The notes under the pieces were generated by a model. The model made no database searches and had not been told where the DNA came from. It saw only the letters and a list, made by a program, of their open reading frames with translations. Positions 2,678 to 29,619 of a stretch of 32,347 bases of DNA are shown piece by piece. Origin of the DNA: Erysipelotrichaceae bacterium (GTDB lineage: Bacteria > Bacillota_I > Bacilli_A > Erysipelotrichales > Erysipelotrichaceae); contig WSYG01000019.1 of the NCBI GenBank assembly GCA_009773735.1, positions 1 through 32,347 of the forward strand. Reading direction: 5' to 3'. A program made the position numbers and the translations under genes. The first letter of the stretch is position 1. Each line of letters opens with the position of its first letter.

Positions 2678-3715
2678 ATGAACCTAAATCATGTCGTTAA
2701 GAAAATTAATCATTCCGTTTTGATTTCAGATCCAAGTATGATCCATTATTTATGTGGAACTCGTTTTCATGTTGGAGAAAGATTTTTAGGCTTATTGATT
2801 CAGGATCAACAAGCTACTCTGTTCTTAAATCAACTCTTCCCTTATGAAAATGAAGCTTTGAAGATTGTTAGGACGAAGGATGAAGAAGATCCCATCGTGA
2901 AAGTTGCCCAACTGCTTAGCTCTATCACTTTAAAAATCGACCATAACTTACCAAGCGGTTTTCTATTACGATTGATGGACTTAAAACCTGGATGTACTTT
3001 CGAACTTGATACACAATTAGATCAACTGAGATCCATTAAGAATGAAGATGAGATTTTATTGATGAGAGAAGCCAGTCGCTTAAATGATATGGTTATGGCA
3101 CAAGTCCCAAGTTTATTAAAAATTGGTGTTCTAGAAAGTGAAGTTAAAAGTAAAATCATAGAATTGTTTAAAGAAGTTTCTGATGGGTGTAGTTTTGACC
3201 CGATCGTTGCTTTTGGAGATCACGCGTCAGACCCTCACGCCTTTGCCCAAGATCGTCCACTTAAAGAGAATGAAGCCATTGTGATCGATATGGGTTGTGT
3301 CTATAAAGGATATTGTTCAGATATGACACGCACTTTCTTTTTAAGAAACAATCCGATGAAAGATATCTATGACCTTGTCTTAAATGCGAACTTAGCTGCG
3401 ATTTCAAGAGTAAAGCCTGGATTATTATTAAGTGAGATCGATGAGGCTGCTCGCTCTGTCATTACTGATGGAGGATATGGTTCTTACTTTATTCATCGTA
3501 CAGGGCATGGGATTGGAACCTCTGTTCATGAGCCTTATCCTGTCTCATCAGATTCACAGGTGATCTGTCAAGAAGGTATGATCTTTTCTATTGAGCCTGG
3601 GATATATATTGAAGGCCAAGGTGGAATACGAATCGAAGATCTCGTGTTGGTAACCAGCACTGGTGTTGAAGTTTTAAATCATAGCCCTAAAGACCAAGAA
3701 ATAATATTTGCATAA
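2678..3715 (+). CDS. M24-family metallopeptidase, Xaa-Pro aminopeptidase/dipeptidase type (345 aa)
   Basis: A cytoplasmic pita-bread metallopeptidase that removes residues next to proline from peptides. An N-terminal creatinase-like domain (about 1-120) precedes the catalytic domain. All five metal ligands are in place: D204, D215, H277, E306 and E320, with H284 nearby as a substrate-site histidine. The length fits PepQ/YpdF-like enzymes. The start follows a GAGG about 8 nt upstream. Which of aminopeptidase P or prolidase it is cannot be settled by reading. Its stop codon lies antisense to the U-tract of the proposed small RNA, so its mRNA would be complementary to that RNA if it reads on. 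Confidence 0.9.
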   Translation: MNLNHVVKKINHSVLISDPSMIHYLCGTRFHVGERFLGLLIQDQQATLFLNQLFPYENEALKIVRTKDEEDPIVKVAQLLSSITLKIDHNLPSGFLLRLMDLKPGCTFELDTQLDQLRSIKNEDEILLMREASRLNDMVMAQVPSLLKIGVLESEVKSKIIELFKEVSDGCSFDPIVAFGDHASDPHAFAQDRPLKENEAIVIDMGCVYKGYCSDMTRTFFLRNNPMKDIYDLVLNANLAAISRVKPGLLLSEIDEAARSVITDGGYGSYFIHRTGHGIGTSVHEPYPVSSDSQVICQEGMIFSIEPGIYIEGQGGIRIEDLVLVTSTGVEVLNHSPKDQEIIFA

Positions 3716-3811
3716 AAAAATACCGGCCTAAATTGGGGGAAGAGCCGGTATACCCTCAGTAAGTTAAAAATGGGTGGGGGATATCTTACTGAAGGTGGAA
3801 CTTAAGTTCCT
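3714..3811 (-). ncRNA. Candidate structured small RNA with two C-rich loops
   Basis: On the minus strand a perfect -10 TATAAT (3823-3818) predicts a start near 3811. The RNA of about 97 nt would fold into three hairpins without linkers. H1 is a 14-bp palindrome, GGAACTTAAGTTCC (3810-3797). H2 has a 12-bp stem with one G-U pair (3796-3785 with 3763-3752) and a 21-nt loop holding CCCCCACCC. H3 has an 8-bp stem (3751-3744 with 3727-3720) and a 16-nt loop holding CCCCC, followed by seven T (3720-3714): an intrinsic terminator. C-rich loops are typical of Gram-positive regulators that pair with G-rich ribosome sites. No good -35 is present; a palindrome AGTATACT sits in its place. No coding frame is evident. 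The family is not recognised. Confidence 0.7.
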
Positions 3812-3817
3812 ATTAAT

Positions 3818-3847
3818 ATTATAAATCATTATTTTGAAAAGTATACT
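3818..3847 (-). promoter_or_regulatory. Promoter of the candidate small RNA
   Basis: Perfect TATAAT at 3823-3818 on the minus strand. The -35 position (3846-3841) reads GTATAC and belongs to the perfect palindrome AGTATACT (3840-3847), which suggests an activator or repressor site rather than a core -35. Confidence 0.5.
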
Positions 3848-3870
3848 AAAATGAACCATATAGTGTGCAA

Positions 3871-3969: not shown

Positions 3970-4000
3970 AACAAAACTCACGGTTATCGTGAGTTTTGTT
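3970..4000. terminator. Terminator of the 3-hydroxybutyrate operon
   Basis: Perfect 13-bp stem (3970-3982 with 3988-4000) and a 5-nt loop. It ends in a TTTTGTT-rich arm followed by TTTTG on the minus strand, 28 bp after the permease stop. The T-rich arm on the plus strand may also stop transcripts of the M24 peptidase. Confidence 0.85.
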
Positions 4001-4027
4001 AACATGGGATATGTTGTTAAGTAAGGA

Positions 4028-5377
4028 TTAATAGATGCCCATTACCGCTAAGATAATGGCAGGAATCGTTGCGATGATCGGCAAGATCAAAGATACGACC
4101 ATGATATCAAAGTAGGAGTCTTTATGAGACATGCCAGTATTATTCAGCAATGTCAATACAGCTCCATTATGAGGTAAGGTATCCAAACCACCGGAAGACA
4201 AGGAAGCGATACGGTGGAAGGCTTGAGTTGAAATGCCTGAAGTCTTGGCCAATTCTACATATTTTGAACCAAGCGCAGCCAAAGCAATGCCCATACCGCC
4301 TGAAGCAGAACCAGTGGCACCAGCCATTAAGTTGACTGCGACTGACAATGAAATCAAAGGATTGCCTGGAACAGATAGAACGATGTTGGTCAAATCAGCA
4401 AAGCCTGGAACAGCTTTAACAACAGCTCCGAAACCAACAGCTGCGGAAGTATTCAGTACAGCGCCGATGGCTCCTTGAGATCCAACAGTGATGCATTTTA
4501 CGAAAATGTCTCTTTTCTTAAGATTTAAAACCATAACCAATGCAATACCAGATAACAATGCATAGATGATGTATTCATTGGCTGATCTGCCAGCTTTGAT
4601 CTGATCAGCAGTAAATTTCATGAAATTAGGCAAAACATTTAAGACGGTGATAACAACGACTAGTGGAATTAGAGCCACTAAGACGTTTGGAAGATTTTCA
4701 TGAGATACTGCTGCTGCTGCATGTTTAGCATCAGGTTCAGTATAGAATTCGCCTGCTTTTTCAATTTTTCTGCGTTTCCATTCCATGTAGTAAAGCCCAC
4801 CAAAGAGTAAGATTGCGGTTGCAGTCAAGCCCATGATTGGACCTGCTGTAGCGGTGGTCCCAAAATACGTTGTTGGGATCAGGTTTTGAATTTGTGGTGT
4901 TCCGGGAACAGCGGTCATGGTGAATGTGAATGCACCTAAGGCAATGGCTCCAGGAATTAATTTACGTGAGATATTAGCTTCTTTGAACATCGCTAAAGCC
5001 AAAGGATAGATGGCGAATACGACGACGAATAATGAAACGCCACCTAAAGTTAAGACTGCACAAGACAATACGATGGAAGCAATTGCTGCTTTTGAGCCAA
5101 GTTTTTCAGTTAAGAAGATGGCGATGGACTTAGCAGCCCCGGTGTTTTCCATCAGGTTTCCAAATATTGCACTCAGCATAAATGCTGGGAACCAAGCCTT
5201 GACGAAACCGACTAGACCCACCATATACGGACCCATATAGGTTGATACGATATCCATACCACCAAATACAGTAACGACAGCAGCACACAATGGTGCAACC
5301 CAAACGATCGAATGACCCTTCAAAGCAAGATACATCAATAAGGCTAGGCCTATGAAAATACCAAATAGACTTGTCAT
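4028..5377 (-). CDS. GntP-family permease, likely for 3-hydroxybutyrate (449 aa)
   Basis: Integral membrane symporter of the GntP/gluconate permease family, with about 12 hydrophobic segments, Gly-rich loops and a charged cytoplasmic loop near residues 198-225. It is the last gene of the operon, 31 bp after bdhA. GntP-family transporters are found next to 3-hydroxybutyrate dehydrogenase in other bacteria (the pseudomonad bdhA neighbourhood), so uptake of 3-hydroxybutyrate or acetoacetate is inferred from context, not from residues. A gluconate-type hydroxy acid remains possible. AAGGAG lies 8 nt before the ATG. Confidence 0.85.
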   Translation of the reverse strand: MTSLFGIFIGLALLMYLALKGHSIVWVAPLCAAVVTVFGGMDIVSTYMGPYMVGLVGFVKAWFPAFMLSAIFGNLMENTGAAKSIAIFLTEKLGSKAAIASIVLSCAVLTLGGVSLFVVVFAIYPLALAMFKEANISRKLIPGAIALGAFTFTMTAVPGTPQIQNLIPTTYFGTTATAGPIMGLTATAILLFGGLYYMEWKRRKIEKAGEFYTEPDAKHAAAAVSHENLPNVLVALIPLVVVITVLNVLPNFMKFTADQIKAGRSANEYIIYALLSGIALVMVLNLKKRDIFVKCITVGSQGAIGAVLNTSAAVGFGAVVKAVPGFADLTNIVLSVPGNPLISLSVAVNLMAGATGSASGGMGIALAALGSKYVELAKTSGISTQAFHRIASLSSGGLDTLPHNGAVLTLLNNTGMSHKDSYFDIMVVSLILPIIATIPAIILAVMGIY

Positions 5378-5408
5378 TTCTCTTTCTCCTTTTTGTTAGA
5401 AATGTTTA

Positions 5409-6170
5409 CTAAGCTGCAGTCCAACCACCATCGATCGTCATTGTGGATCCGGTGATCATGCCTGCTTCATCTGTACACAAGAACTTAACAACGTTTGCGA
5501 CTTCTTCTGGTTTCAAGAGCTTTTTAACAGCTGCTTTAGCCAACATGATTTTTTCTACTACTTCTGCTTCTGAGATGCCATGATTGATGGCTTGAGCAGA
5601 AATCTGCTTATCAACTAGCGGTGTCTTAACATAAGAAGGACAGATTGAGTTGACAGTGATGCCATAAGCTCCGCCTTCTAATGCTGCTGTTTTTGTTAAA
5701 CCAGCCAAACCATGTTTTGCAGAAACATAGGCTGATTTGAATTCAGAAGCAACTAAACCATGAATGGAATTGAGGTTGATAACACGTCCCCATTTCTTTT
5801 CCTTCATGAAAGGCCAAGAATAACGAGTCAATAAGAATGGCGCAGTCAACATCAGGTTGATCATGAAATCCCATTTGTCTTCAGGGAAATCTTCAATCGG
5901 AGATACCGTTTGAATACCAGCAACATTCACTAGGATATCAACACCACCATACGTTTTTGCAGCAAAATCTACCGCATTCTTACAATCTAAACGTTTGCTG
6001 AGATCGGCTACGACATAACTTGAACCTAAACGAGCACAATGCTCTTTTAGTTGAGCTTCATTGATGTCGACCATGACGACTTTTGCTTGTTCAGCCGCAA
6101 ACATTTCTGCGATAGCCAATCCGATTCCACTGGCTGCACCAGTGACGATACATACTTTATCTTTTAACAT
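5409..6170 (-). CDS. bdhA: D-3-hydroxybutyrate dehydrogenase (SDR, 253 aa)
   Basis: NAD-dependent oxidation of 3-hydroxybutyrate to acetoacetate. Classical SDR fold: TGAASGIG cofactor loop (10-17), NVAG (82-85, normally NNAG), catalytic S135, Y148 and K152. The substrate-pocket residues known from bacterial 3-hydroxybutyrate dehydrogenases are all found at a constant offset: Q87, H137, K145 and Q189. This makes the specificity call stronger than usual for an SDR. The start at 6170 is set by AAGGAGG just upstream; the frame is open for 17 more codons. It lies between atoA and the permease in one operon. Confidence 0.92.
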   Translation of the reverse strand: MLKDKVCIVTGAASGIGLAIAEMFAAEQAKVVMVDINEAQLKEHCARLGSSYVVADLSKRLDCKNAVDFAAKTYGGVDILVNVAGIQTVSPIEDFPEDKWDFMINLMLTAPFLLTRYSWPFMKEKKWGRVINLNSIHGLVASEFKSAYVSAKHGLAGLTKTAALEGGAYGITVNSICPSYVKTPLVDKQISAQAINHGISEAEVVEKIMLAKAAVKKLLKPEEVANVVKFLCTDEAGMITGSTMTIDGGWTAA

Positions 6171-6220
6171 TTTGTTCCTCCTTGTGTTAAAAGTTCTGGT
6201 TGTGGATAAATCCACTCCCA

Positions 6221-6874
6221 TTACATTTGAAGTAAAGGCTCTGCGATAATGAGCGTTGGTTCAGTCATTTCTTGAACTTGCTCAACAGTAAACTCAGGAT
6301 TGATTTCTTTAAGTACTAAGCCCTCTGGTGTTACTTCAATGACACCCATTTCGGTAACGATCAGATTAACTTCATGAGCTGCAGTCAAAGGTAAATTACA
6401 TGCTTTCAAGATCTTCTTATCACCTTTAGCCGTATGTTCCATCGCAACGATGACTTTACGAGCGCCTGAGATCAAATCCATTGCACCACCCATACCAGGA
6501 ACCATTTTCCCTGGAATCATGTAGTTGGCAATATTGCCTTCTTCATCAACCTGTAAAGCACCTAATACGGTAAGATCAACATGTCCTCCACGTATGATCC
6601 CAAAGGATGTTGCGGAATCAAAGAAGATGCCTCCCGTTTTAATGGTGACTGGTTTTCCACCAGCGTTAGTGATATAAGTATCGATCTTGTCTTCTGTTGG
6701 GGTAGGACCTAAACCGACAAAACCATTTTCTGATTGAAACCAAACTGTTTTATCTTCAGGTACAAAATTCGCAACTAAGGTAGGTAAGCCAATTCCTAGA
6801 TTACAGACATTGCCATCTTGAAGTTCTTTCGCAACTCGTCTTGCGATGAATTCTTGGATCAGTTGTTTATCCAT
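6221..6874 (-). CDS. atoA: Acetoacetate CoA-transferase, beta subunit (217 aa)
   Basis: Catalytic subunit of a family I 3-oxoacid CoA-transferase. It moves CoA from an acyl-CoA donor to acetoacetate through a glutamyl-CoA intermediate. The catalytic glutamate is E49 in the SENG motif, followed by GFVGLGP; the PGKMVPGMGGAMDL stretch is typical of AtoA/CtfB/ScoB. Usual full length. It starts 2 bp after the stop of the alpha subunit, as expected for a stoichiometric heteromer. Confidence 0.93.
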   Translation of the reverse strand: MDKQLIQEFIARRVAKELQDGNVCNLGIGLPTLVANFVPEDKTVWFQSENGFVGLGPTPTEDKIDTYITNAGGKPVTIKTGGIFFDSATSFGIIRGGHVDLTVLGALQVDEEGNIANYMIPGKMVPGMGGAMDLISGARKVIVAMEHTAKGDKKILKACNLPLTAAHEVNLIVTEMGVIEVTPEGLVLKEINPEFTVEQVQEMTEPTLIIAEPLLQM

Positions 6875-6876
6875 GC

Positions 6877-7527
6877 TTATTCCTTTCCCTTCACGATGTA
6901 ATTGACGAAGACGCCAGGTGTTTCTGCTCTATCGGGACACAAGGCTTCTTCACTGTATTCATCAACTTCACAAATTGTTATATCAGCTGCTCCAGCCATA
7001 ACGGAGTTGAAGTTTTGAGCTGCACCGTGATAGGAGAGATTGCCATATTTATCGCCCTTATTGGCGAAGATCAGAGCTACATTTGCGTGTAGCGGTAATT
7101 CAAGTAAGTATTCTCTGCCATTAACTGGGATCATCATCTTGCCTTCAGCAACTTTGGTTCCAACGCCAGTTGCGGTTAGGATGCCTCCTAAACCATAACA
7201 AGCTGCTCTGATTTGTTCAGCCAAGGTTCCTTGAGGGGTCAAGACAACTTCAGTCTCGCCTTCCATCATTTGGCGACCTGTTTCTTTGTTGGTTCCAATG
7301 TGAGAAGCGATGATTTTACTAAATTGTTTGTTGACAACCAATTTACCGACACCGATGTCAACAAATCCACTGTCATTACAGATCAAAGTCAGATTCTTCG
7401 TTCCTTGCGCAACCAACGCATCGATCATTTTATGAGGTGAGCCTACGCCCAAGAACCCACCAATCATCACCACATCACCATCTTTTACTTTTGATACTGC
7501 TTCTTGTATAGAGATCAGTTTGTTCAT
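6877..7527 (-). CDS. atoD: Acetoacetate CoA-transferase, alpha subunit (216 aa)
   Basis: Partner of AtoA. It shows the GGFLGVGSP glycine-rich CoA-binding loop near residues 22-30, ASHIGTN near 74-80, the [10 protein letters not shown] segment and the usual 216-aa length of AtoD/CtfA/ScoA. The ATG at 7527 overlaps the thiolase stop by 4 bp (ATGA), so coupling replaces a strong ribosome site (only AGAAAGA is seen). The open frame continues upstream inside the thiolase gene, but those residues do not belong to the family. Confidence 0.93.
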
Positions 7528-8708
7528 ATTGTTCTTTCTACGATCACGGAGATCCCTTGTCCACCGCCGATACATAAGGTTGCTAAACCGTTTTTGGCAT
7601 CGCGTTTGATCATTTCATGGATTAAGGTGACCAAGATCCTAGCACCACTGGCACCAATCGGATGACCTAGGGCTATGGCTCCACCGTTAACGTTAACGAT
7701 GTCTGGGTTTAAGTTTAAATCTTTCATGACACTTAAGGCTTGTGCTGCAAATGCTTCGTTGCCTTCTACTAAATCTAGATCACTGACACTGAGTCCTGCT
7801 TTCGCCAACGCTTTTAAGGTTGATGGGATTGGACCTGTACCCATGATTTGTGGATCGACTCCTGCTGAAGCAGCTGCTTTAACAGTAACGAGAATGGTTA
7901 GACCTAATGCTTTGGCTTTTTCTTCACTCATAATGACGAAGGCTGCTGCCCCATCATTGAGACCTGAAGCATTGGCTGCGGTAACAACTCCATCTTTTTT
8001 AAAGGCGGGTCTTAGTTTAGCCAATCCTTCTAGTGTGGTTCCTGCTTTAGGATATTCATCGGTATCTATGACTAGGGAATCCCCTTTTTTCTGAGGGATA
8101 ATGACTGGTACAATTTCTGCTTTAAATTTTCCTTCAGCGATTGCTTTAATGGCTTTGACTTGACTACCAACCGCAAAGGTATCCAGTTGTTCACGTGTGA
8201 ATCCATATTTTTCAGCGATGTTTTCTGCGGTTATGCCCATGTGGACATCACTGAAGGCATCGGTCAATCCATCATGGACCATCGTATCAATCATACTGAC
8301 ATCGCCCATACGAGCACCCCAACGCGCTGATGGGACAACATAAGGAGATAAACTCATGTTTTCGGTTCCGCCAGCAACGATGACATCTGCATCTCCGTTT
8401 TGAATGGCCTGGACAGCTAATTGTACAGCTTTTAGTCCTGAACCACATACTTTATTGATGGTAAATGAAGATGTTTCAATCGGTAAACCTGCATGAATCG
8501 AAACTTGACGAGCTACGTTTTGACCTAAACCTGCTTGTAGAACATTTCCAAAGATGACTTCATCTACACTACTGGCATCTATTTTCGCTCTTAAAAGAGC
8601 TTCTTTAACAACCACAGTCCCAAGTTCAACGGCTGTGACTGATTTGAATACTCCGCCGAAAGATCCGATCGGTGTTCTTACGGCAGATATGATGACTGCA
8701 TTTCTCAT
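7524..8708 (-). CDS. atoB: Acetyl-CoA acetyltransferase / thiolase (394 aa)
   Basis: Cleaves acetoacetyl-CoA with CoA into two acetyl-CoA, or runs in reverse. Catalytic triad positions: nucleophile C88 in KVCGSG, H349 in [10 protein letters not shown], and C379 in CIGGGQG; NEAF is at 317-320. The length matches biosynthetic-type thiolases. The start at 8708 has AGGAG 7 nt upstream; 27 further in-frame codons upstream cross the leader and a cre-like site and are not coding. It is the first gene of the five-gene operon, which favours a catabolic role ending in acetyl-CoA. Confidence 0.95.
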
Positions 8709-8734
8709 GAAAGTTCTCCTATATTGATCATTGA

Positions 8735-8748
8735 GTAAAGCGCTTACA
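8735..8748 (-). promoter_or_regulatory. cre-like site in the atoB leader
   Basis: Minus strand TGTAAGCGCTTTAC matches 12 of 14 positions of the cre consensus TGWAANCGNTNWCA; only the final CA differs. It lies between the predicted start (near 8773) and the atoB ATG, where CcpA would act as a roadblock. Confidence 0.5.
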
Positions 8749-8779
8749 GTCCCATTTTCCATCAAAATCTCACTTGTGT

Positions 8780-8785
8780 AAAATA
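8780..8785 (-). promoter_or_regulatory. Possible -10 of the atoB operon
   Basis: TATTTT on the minus strand, with no good -35 behind it. This fits an activator-dependent promoter whose LysR box is just upstream (8804-8820). The predicted start is near 8773. Confidence 0.4.
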
Positions 8786-8800
8786 CCAATTTTTTATCGG

Positions 8801-8829
8801 TTGTATAAGTTGCGCTTATAGGTTAAAAT
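8801..8829 (+). promoter_or_regulatory. Promoter of the LysR regulator gene
   Basis: TTGTAT (8801-8806), 17-bp spacer, TAAAAT (8824-8829). The predicted start near 8836 leaves a leader of about 12 nt without a Shine-Dalgarno sequence. Confidence 0.5.
8804..8820. promoter_or_regulatory. LysR-type operator (T-N11-A)
   Basis: Perfect inverted repeat TATAAG / CTTATA around TTGCG; the core T-N11-A box is 8806-8818. It lies between the divergent lysR gene and atoB operon and overlaps the putative -35/spacer of lysR, as expected for activation of the operon with autorepression. Confidence 0.7.
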
Positions 8830-8847
8830 AAAGACACTTGGTAAAAA

Positions 8848-9765
8848 ATGGACATCTCACAGCTCAAGTATTTTGTATGCATCGTTGACAGTGACTTCAA
8901 TCTGTCAAGTGCATCTAGAAAATTACATATCTCACAACCTGCTTTGACTCAATATATCCGTAAGTTCGAGGATGAGGAAAATACAGAGCTTTTCATACGC
9001 AGTTCCGGTCGTTTGGTTGGTTTGACAGTCAGTGGCGAAAACTTTTATGTCAACGCAATGAATGTCGTCAAACATCACGAACTAATGCTTAAAGAATTGC
9101 GTGAAAATGCTTCCACCATCAAAGGAAAAATTGCGATTGGTGTTCCCCCATTGATCTTAACGGTTCTGTTTACAAGATTATTGTCACAGCTCATCACAAA
9201 AAATCCTTTTATTAATTTTGTTATCGTAGAAGAAGGTGCATTTGAACTTGAGAAACAAATGGTTTTACATGAGATAGACTTTGCGATCATACTTCAACCT
9301 ACCGATTTGAAACAACAATTGTTTAGTGAAGATCTAATTCATAAAGATGAACTGACCGCTTTTATGTCGATTGATCATCCTCTTGCACAACAAGACACAA
9401 TATCTTGGTTTGATTTAAAACAACATCCTCTCGCAATATTCAAAGAAACATTTATGATTCGCCATCAATTAGAACGTAAATTTGAAAGTCTTGGGTTTAG
9501 ACCTAATATTGCGATCACGTCATCTTCTTGGGATTTCTTATTAGAATCAACCCGTGGATCTAATTTCATCACAATTTTACCTTCTCCAACTCGTAATCAT
9601 ATGCGTATGGAAGGTATTGTTGAGAAGCATTTTGATCAACCCATATCTTGGCATGTTGTATTGGCTTACCCCATTAAACAACACCACAACCGTATAGAAA
9701 TCTATGTGAAAAGAAGTATCATCGATTTCTTTACCAAAGGCATAGACATAGAACCCATCAAGTAA
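8848..9765 (+). CDS. LysR-family regulator of the hydroxybutyrate operon (305 aa)
   Basis: N-terminal winged helix-turn-helix (about 1-60, with the LHISQPALTQYIRKFE recognition segment) joined to a periplasmic-binding-protein-like effector domain (about 90-295). Full length for the family. It is transcribed away from the atoB operon with a T-N11-A box between them, the normal arrangement for a LysR activator of the neighbouring pathway; the effector is probably an operon substrate or intermediate. The ribosome site is poor, and low-level or short-leader translation is likely. The regulatory target is inferred from position. Confidence 0.9.
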   Translation: MDISQLKYFVCIVDSDFNLSSASRKLHISQPALTQYIRKFEDEENTELFIRSSGRLVGLTVSGENFYVNAMNVVKHHELMLKELRENASTIKGKIAIGVPPLILTVLFTRLLSQLITKNPFINFVIVEEGAFELEKQMVLHEIDFAIILQPTDLKQQLFSEDLIHKDELTAFMSIDHPLAQQDTISWFDLKQHPLAIFKETFMIRHQLERKFESLGFRPNIAITSSSWDFLLESTRGSNFITILPSPTRNHMRMEGIVEKHFDQPISWHVVLAYPIKQHHNRIEIYVKRSIIDFFTKGIDIEPIK

Positions 9766-13348: not shown

Positions 13349-13546
13349 TTATATCTTTGTGATATTTTGAGCTTGCAAGCCGCGATCTGTCTCGACTTGC
13401 TCGAATTCAACGTCAGCATTTTCTTCGATTGTTTTGAATCCGTCCATCTTCAATTGTGAATAATGGAAGAATACATCTTTACCGTCATTGTTGACGATGA
13501 AACCGAAGCCTTTTTCTTTGTTGAACTTCTTAACTTTTCCTTGCAT
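13349..13546 (-). CDS. cspA: Cold-shock protein, CspA family (65 aa)
   Basis: Single cold-shock domain, an OB-fold RNA and single-stranded DNA binding protein. Both nucleic-acid motifs are visible: RNP1 KGFGFI (12-17) and RNP2 VFFHY (25-29). The length is standard. AGGA stands close before the ATG. It has its own promoter and terminator, so it is monocistronic. Whether it is cold-induced or constitutive cannot be told; its leader is only about 40 nt, too short for the long cold-responsive leader known in E. coli. Confidence 0.96.
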   Translation of the reverse strand: MQGKVKKFNKEKGFGFIVNNDGKDVFFHYSQLKMDGFKTIEENADVEFEQVETDRGLQAQNITKI

Positions 13547-25039: not shown

Positions 25040-25843
25040 TTAAATTTTTCCTAGTGCTTTAGCACGTGCTTCAGATTGACGCACCGCATGTACGATTTGG
25101 TTTTCAACTCCGTCATCCCTTAATGATTGGATGCCTTCAATCGTAGAACCATTGGGTGAACACACTCTTTCAATCAGATCTTGTGGATCCATATTGTTCT
25201 CTTGTAGGTAAGCAATGGTTCCTGTAATGGTGTGATAGAGCATTCTGTAAGTCTCTTTATCGCTGAATTGTCCGGAAGCACCCAATTTCATCGCATTGAT
25301 GAAGTAGGCCAAGAAAGCAGGACCACTGCCGATCAACACAGACCCGATGTCCATCTTATTTTCATCAATCAAAACAACCAAGCCCAACTTTGAAAACATG
25401 ACCGCACAGATATTCAAATTTTCGTGATTCAAATTGTGTGCTTTGCTTAATAAAATGACACCCTCTTGAACTTCAACAGCCAGGTTTGGCATGACCCTTA
25501 TGACTTGTGTACTTGGTTCTACCATCGCAACCAAATTCTCTGTGGTGATTCCTGCCGCAATTGATATGATGACCTTGTTTTTTAAGTGATTTCTTAAAAT
25601 CCTTAGAACTGAAGGCAAAATCTGTGGTTTGACTGCCAAAAGGATGATGTCGCTTTTTTCACACATCTCATAGGAATCCAAACAAATATTCACTCCAGGA
25701 TGATCTGATTTGGCTTTTGGTGATGAATGTGGCGTATATACAAAAAGGTTGGTTTCGTCTAAAAATCCTTGTGTGATCAACCCATCAATCAAAGCTTTTC
25801 CCATCTTTCCGTAACCTAAAAGTCCAAGCTTAAATGGTTTCAT
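25040..25843 (-). CDS. proC: Pyrroline-5-carboxylate reductase (267 aa)
   Basis: Last step of proline synthesis: NAD(P)H-dependent reduction of pyrroline-5-carboxylate. N-terminal Rossmann loop GYGKMGKAL (10-18), VIRVMPNLA near residue 115, GSGPAF near 172, and SPNGSTIEG in the C-terminal helical dimer domain where most ProC have SPGGTTIEG. The divergent residues make a related imine reductase possible, though ProC is much the best fit. AAGGGG is the ribosome site. It shares a palindromic intergenic region with the divergent CoA-binding protein. Confidence 0.88.
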   Translation of the reverse strand: MKPFKLGLLGYGKMGKALIDGLITQGFLDETNLFVYTPHSSPKAKSDHPGVNICLDSYEMCEKSDIILLAVKPQILPSVLRILRNHLKNKVIISIAAGITTENLVAMVEPSTQVIRVMPNLAVEVQEGVILLSKAHNLNHENLNICAVMFSKLGLVVLIDENKMDIGSVLIGSGPAFLAYFINAMKLGASGQFSDKETYRMLYHTITGTIAYLQENNMDPQDLIERVCSPNGSTIEGIQSLRDDGVENQIVHAVRQSEARAKALGKI

Positions 25844-25853
25844 AGTGACCCCT

Positions 25854-25912
25854 TATATCTATTTTAAGGTATACTGCTTTAAACTTCATCATATTTTGTT
25901 AAAATAGATATA
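25854..25912. promoter_or_regulatory. Long perfect inverted repeat between proC and the CoA-binding gene
   Basis: TATATCTATTTTAA (25854-25867) and its exact complement TTAAAATAGATATA (25899-25912), 31 bp apart. Each arm contains a -10-like TAAAAT facing outward to its own gene, so both promoters appear to be built from the same sequence. Confidence 0.65.
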
Positions 25913-29607: not shown

Positions 29608-29619
29608 CACAACCCCCTA

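Follow-up and report, generated by a model that had tools for sequence, protein, structure and literature searches.

Does the minus strand just downstream of the M24 metallopeptidase gene (2678-3715, plus strand) carry a small-RNA gene of its own, and if so, how would that RNA act? A first-pass annotation of the window (the whole 32,347-nt stretch analysed here, one contig of the 1.94-Mb, 82-contig genome of an uncultured Erysipelotrichaceae bacterium) had proposed a trans-acting regulator of translation belonging to an unrecognised family. We examined its fold, conservation, distribution, surroundings and candidate targets.

Fold and anatomy of the predicted RNA

Folding of 3812-3712 on the minus strand yields three abutting hairpins within 3811-3714, with a run of U at the end and a minimum free energy of -34.6 kcal/mol. 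Shuffled sequences average -17.25 kcal/mol, and none of 200 was equally stable (z = -6.8); the plus strand of the same region reaches a z of only -2.05. The three hairpins follow one another without a single unpaired base between them in both the minimum-energy and the centroid structure, just as the first-pass annotation had described. Hairpin 1 (3797-3810), at the very 5' end, has 5 bp (GGAAC/GUUCC) and a UUAA loop. Hairpin 2 (3752-3796) has the 12-bp stem reported earlier, with 2 bp further in, and a 15-nt loop containing UAUCCCCCACCC. Hairpin 3 (3720-3751), predicted to be the stem of an intrinsic terminator, has 8 + 2 bp and an 11-nt loop containing CUUCCCCCAAUU. The seven U said to come after this last hairpin are indeed there (3720-3714), but the first of them is paired with A3751. 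The U-run reaches, in antisense, the stop codon of the M24 gene (3713-3715), as had been noted.

Both large loops expose a CCCCC run whose probability of being unpaired is 0.99-1.0, so the two open C5 loops of the first-pass annotation stand; what they share is seven letters, UCCCCCA, at 3775-3781 in hairpin 2 and at 3734-3740 in hairpin 3. In 1.16 Mb of the genome, there are just two places where the heptamer appears twice on the same strand within 100 nt, and the one described here is among them. None of the candidate small open reading frames in the region is retained in the sister species described below.

Promoter and upstream block

The TATAAT that the first-pass annotation had placed on the minus strand lies at 3823-3818 and is also kept in the sister species, although no recognisable -35 element is found 17 nt from it. 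If this promoter is used, the predicted transcript (3714-3811) would be about 96-98 nt long. Further upstream, a conserved block, TGCACACTATA...TATACT (3840-3869, minus strand), is a candidate second promoter or activator site; it holds a second promoter-like pair, TGCACA-18-TATACT (3869-3840), which by itself does not rise above shuffled sequences in a scan for promoter consensus. This second pair is conserved as well, and the 5' end of the RNA may lie at either ~3811 or ~3833.

In the sister species, TGCACACTATA belongs to a near-palindrome, TGACACTTATAGTGTGCA. An exact second copy of TGCACACTATA occurs once in the compared part of that genome, 152 nt from the start of a response regulator, and no other copy occurs in the compared part of the genome studied here; thus, no regulon is seen in the parts compared.

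Conservation in a sister species

A second species of the same genus, represented by the metagenome-assembled genome W9_Combined_metabat2_129 (Erysipelotrichaceae; contig JAAXXT010000023.1), carries the element beside the same M24 gene, and the 93 nt from 3711 to 3803 are identical in the two, letter for letter. The background is far more divergent: alignable DNA is about 79% identical, the median identity of 256 pairs of orthologous proteins is 75%, and the M24 protein itself is at 67%. Within the parts of the two genomes that entered the comparison (1.16 of 1.94 Mb and 0.60 of ~1.9 Mb), no exact match is longer than the element once rRNA, tRNA and clusters of core protein genes are set aside. 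The other exact blocks of at least this length that were looked up proved to be rRNA, tRNA, or genes for ribosomal or other core proteins, and among blocks without an open frame running through them, only tRNA blocks and those from ribosomal-protein operons are longer. On these comparisons, the 93-nt identity is not a product of chance.

The conservation is also sharp-edged, beginning at the promoter and ending at the terminator. Identity is 100% over 3796-3717 and 80-95% over 3855-3797; it drops to 40-65% upstream of ~3856 and to 65-75% past the U-run, in the end of the M24 gene. Inside the RNA, the two species differ at just two bases, both in the loop of hairpin 1, which reads GAAA in the sister species with the stem kept; one base is inserted just upstream of the RNA. 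What the computation finds conserved, then, is one transcription unit. Sequence and fold together show the parts of an independent trans-encoded small-RNA gene: a promoter of its own, a short structured non-coding RNA and an intrinsic terminator. Because conservation spans exactly the stretch from promoter to terminator, and because the exact match is exceptional, we consider it very probable that this is a real and independent small-RNA gene.

An identity so extreme against the background could also stem from a recent exchange between the two species, by transfer or gene conversion, rather than from purifying selection. We regard this as extremely unlikely: in both species, the element sits next to M24 at the same position and in the same orientation, the promoter and flanks show graded divergence, and no copy turned up in plasmids and phages (DNA search of the region) or in viral contigs (pattern search).

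The hairpins might instead do no more than serve M24 on the plus strand, as its terminator or as a structured 3' UTR, or they might terminate transcription in both directions. Hairpins are symmetric, and on the plus strand hairpin 1 is followed by a T-rich stretch. Yet the U-run and the TATAAT are both on the minus strand, the plus-strand fold is weak, and a terminator has no need of 93 identical nucleotides with open loops, all of which makes such an origin very unlikely.

Genomic surroundings

The order of genes around the element argues for an independent gene as well. The sister species has the element directly after its homologue of the window's prfB. In the window, the two are set apart by a 5.8-kb segment that encodes a GntP-type permease, an SDR, two CoA-transferase subunits, a thiolase and a LysR regulator. 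Thus, the upstream neighbour differs while the small RNA and its promoter are unchanged. A terminator-like hairpin (3974-4002, -17.6 kcal/mol), located between the permease gene and the small RNA, separates the latter from its upstream gene.

The sister species lacks the segment itself (4028-9765) at this locus, and the permease encoded in it was found in just 8 of the 60 genomes searched.

On its other side, the element faces M24, and this convergent order is kept in both species. Because no U-tailed terminator precedes the hairpin at 3974-4002, the M24 mRNA would run antisense through the small-RNA gene; in both species, the next strong terminator-like hairpin of M24 lies beyond that gene. 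The RNA might therefore be a cis-acting antisense partner of M24, pairing over its whole length with the read-through mRNA, such that either RNA could titrate the other. Pairing alone, however, leaves 93 identical nucleotides unexplained while M24 diverges to 67%, and we judge this reading unlikely.

Distribution and Rfam

The element is narrowly distributed. Among 60 relatives searched, only the sister species has it, and that metagenome-assembled genome was also the sole match in a pattern scan of 84,980 genomes; the genome studied here holds one copy. A covariance search of the kind the first-pass annotation had proposed, with a three-hairpin model of the pair, gave matches confined to these two genomes among sets of 118 relatives, 8 genomes of the genus, 273 of the family and 316 of the order. 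Stems and C-rich loops are kept in both, but with just two near-identical sequences in the 316 genomes of the order, the pair is too alike for covariation to test the fold. The element was not seen downstream of M24 in other members of the genus; three of the six other members in the genus sample are less than 80% complete, so that a few absences may be gaps.

Weak matches of the model in three further genomes (E = 0.35-0.78 per genome) are at chance level for 273 genomes and lack the two C5 loops. A blast match in another genome looks like coding DNA and was rejected as a relative.

No family of Rfam 15 reaches its gathering cut-off in the window; at the position of the RNA, Yfr10 comes closest, with 21.9 bits where 43 would be needed (E = 1.2). 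Of the earlier proposal, the idea of a small-RNA gene from a family not yet described is thus well supported by conservation of the unit and the lack of an Rfam match, while regulation of translation in trans gained no signal from the target tests reported below.

Proposed mode of action and target tests

The best joint explanation, which we hold to be somewhat more probable than its negation, is an independent small-RNA gene whose loops block Shine-Dalgarno sites without Hfq. Its own promoter would give rise to an RNA of ~97 nt (or ~120 nt) that ends at its own intrinsic terminator and whose 5' hairpin would protect the RNA end. Hairpin 2 and the terminator would each offer an unpaired UCCCCCA, and each loop would most likely first contact an mRNA at a Shine-Dalgarno sequence of the UGGGGGA type; the ribosome would then be kept from binding, with no Hfq involved. 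We infer all three of the steps: transcription, pairing with mRNAs and repression. Hfq is absent by computation: the Pfam model found it neither in the genome itself nor in 30 relatives, with positive controls in B. subtilis and E. coli. Blocking of G-rich ribosome sites by C-rich loops fits both the anatomy and this absence.

The G-rich ribosome sites that had been pointed out nearby do exist: AAAGGGGAA of the ABC ATPase at 427, AGGGGG of purB at 29618, and AAGGGG at 25854, which precedes a gene starting at 25843. None of the three contains the full complement, TGGGGGA. Target prediction with the two loops, which the first-pass annotation had suggested, did not bear out the expectation: in the parts of both genomes compared, candidate sites were no commoner than with shuffled loops, and start codons were set by a simple rule that blurs tests of this kind. 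When paired with ribosome-binding regions, the real loops gave duplex energies no better than shuffled or reversed ones. Over 184 ortholog pairs, strong pairings (-11 or better) shared by both species numbered 6 with the real loops against a mean of 18.5 with shuffled ones. The pattern TGGGGGA-N3-10-ATG is equally frequent in members of the genus that lack the RNA.

The one TGGGGGA-ATG site conserved in three genomes was set aside: it is apparently internal to a gene, given the motif DGGTHE known from GyrB/ParE. Candidate targets, which we offer as leads only, include the ribosome site AATGGGGGATACCT upstream of a lipoprotein-like gene. The usual AGGAGG is a poor partner for CCCCC, which may restrict the RNA to a small number of sites.

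A real small RNA could also act otherwise; for example, its C-rich loops could bind a protein, or it could sponge another RNA. The absence of target enrichment would agree with this, as would the conservation of the stems along with the loops at the level of rRNA and tRNA. Two open copies of one heptamer are nevertheless a hallmark of pairing regulators, and we see such other modes as possible but distinctly less than probable. It is doubtful, though conceivable, that all of the following hold together: that the small RNA arose recently, is narrowly restricted and works without Hfq; that its heptamer seed is present twice, the second time in the terminator; that rRNA-like constraint extends over its full length; and that its own convergent M24 mRNA is a built-in sponge.

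Comparison with known regulators

The preferred reading, in which the loops block Shine-Dalgarno sites, has precedents in Gram-positive bacteria. C-rich sites of LhrC (Listeria monocytogenes) and of RsaE act on Shine-Dalgarno regions, and the terminator loop and loop A of LhrC are redundant (PMC4132741); in Staphylococcus, C-rich sites of IsrR pair with the Shine-Dalgarno regions of mRNAs (PMC9410917). By analogy, the RNA may work like LhrC- and IsrR-type regulators in mode of action, which does not imply membership.

LhrC1-5 are likewise Firmicute small RNAs; both a stem-loop and the terminator loop contain C-rich sites (UCCC), which are redundant, and Hfq is dispensable in the regulation of lapB (PMC4132741). 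They differ in having five copies, a third, single-stranded CU-rich site and LisRK control, whereas here there are one copy, two sites, the heptamer UCCCCCA, three abutting hairpins without linkers and no Rfam match; the single copy speaks against LhrC membership. IsrR likewise has hairpins followed by a terminator, and uses C-rich regions, two of them in loops and one a run of 4-7 C, on mRNAs with G-rich Shine-Dalgarno sequences (PMC9410917). It is, however, 174 nt long, is controlled by Fur, and has three C-rich regions and a poorly conserved terminator, while the terminator loop here holds one C-rich site and is fully conserved. RsaE/RoxS are Gram-positive small RNAs that also direct C-rich unpaired motifs against Shine-Dalgarno sites (UCCC in RsaE, as cited in PMC4132741); unlike them, the RNA here reaches no Rfam family at gathering score.

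Little seems to have been published on small RNAs of Erysipelotrichaceae, and a literature search found no description of any; nor did the search for Hfq find it in the lineage. A gene under such constraint over 93 nt, but known from just two species, would offer a way into the study of RNA regulation without Hfq in this family.

Two further features of the window deserve mention. The prfB gene (10889-9790, minus strand) has the classic programmed +1 frameshift, at CTTTGAC, and is given a shortened start by a plain ORF finder. Between a comF-like gene and secA, a 65-aa open reading frame (13349-13546, minus strand) resembles cold-shock proteins; its region scores 21 bits against the Rfam cspA thermoregulator, below the cut-off of 78, and a near copy of the frame with its leader occurs elsewhere in the sister genome.
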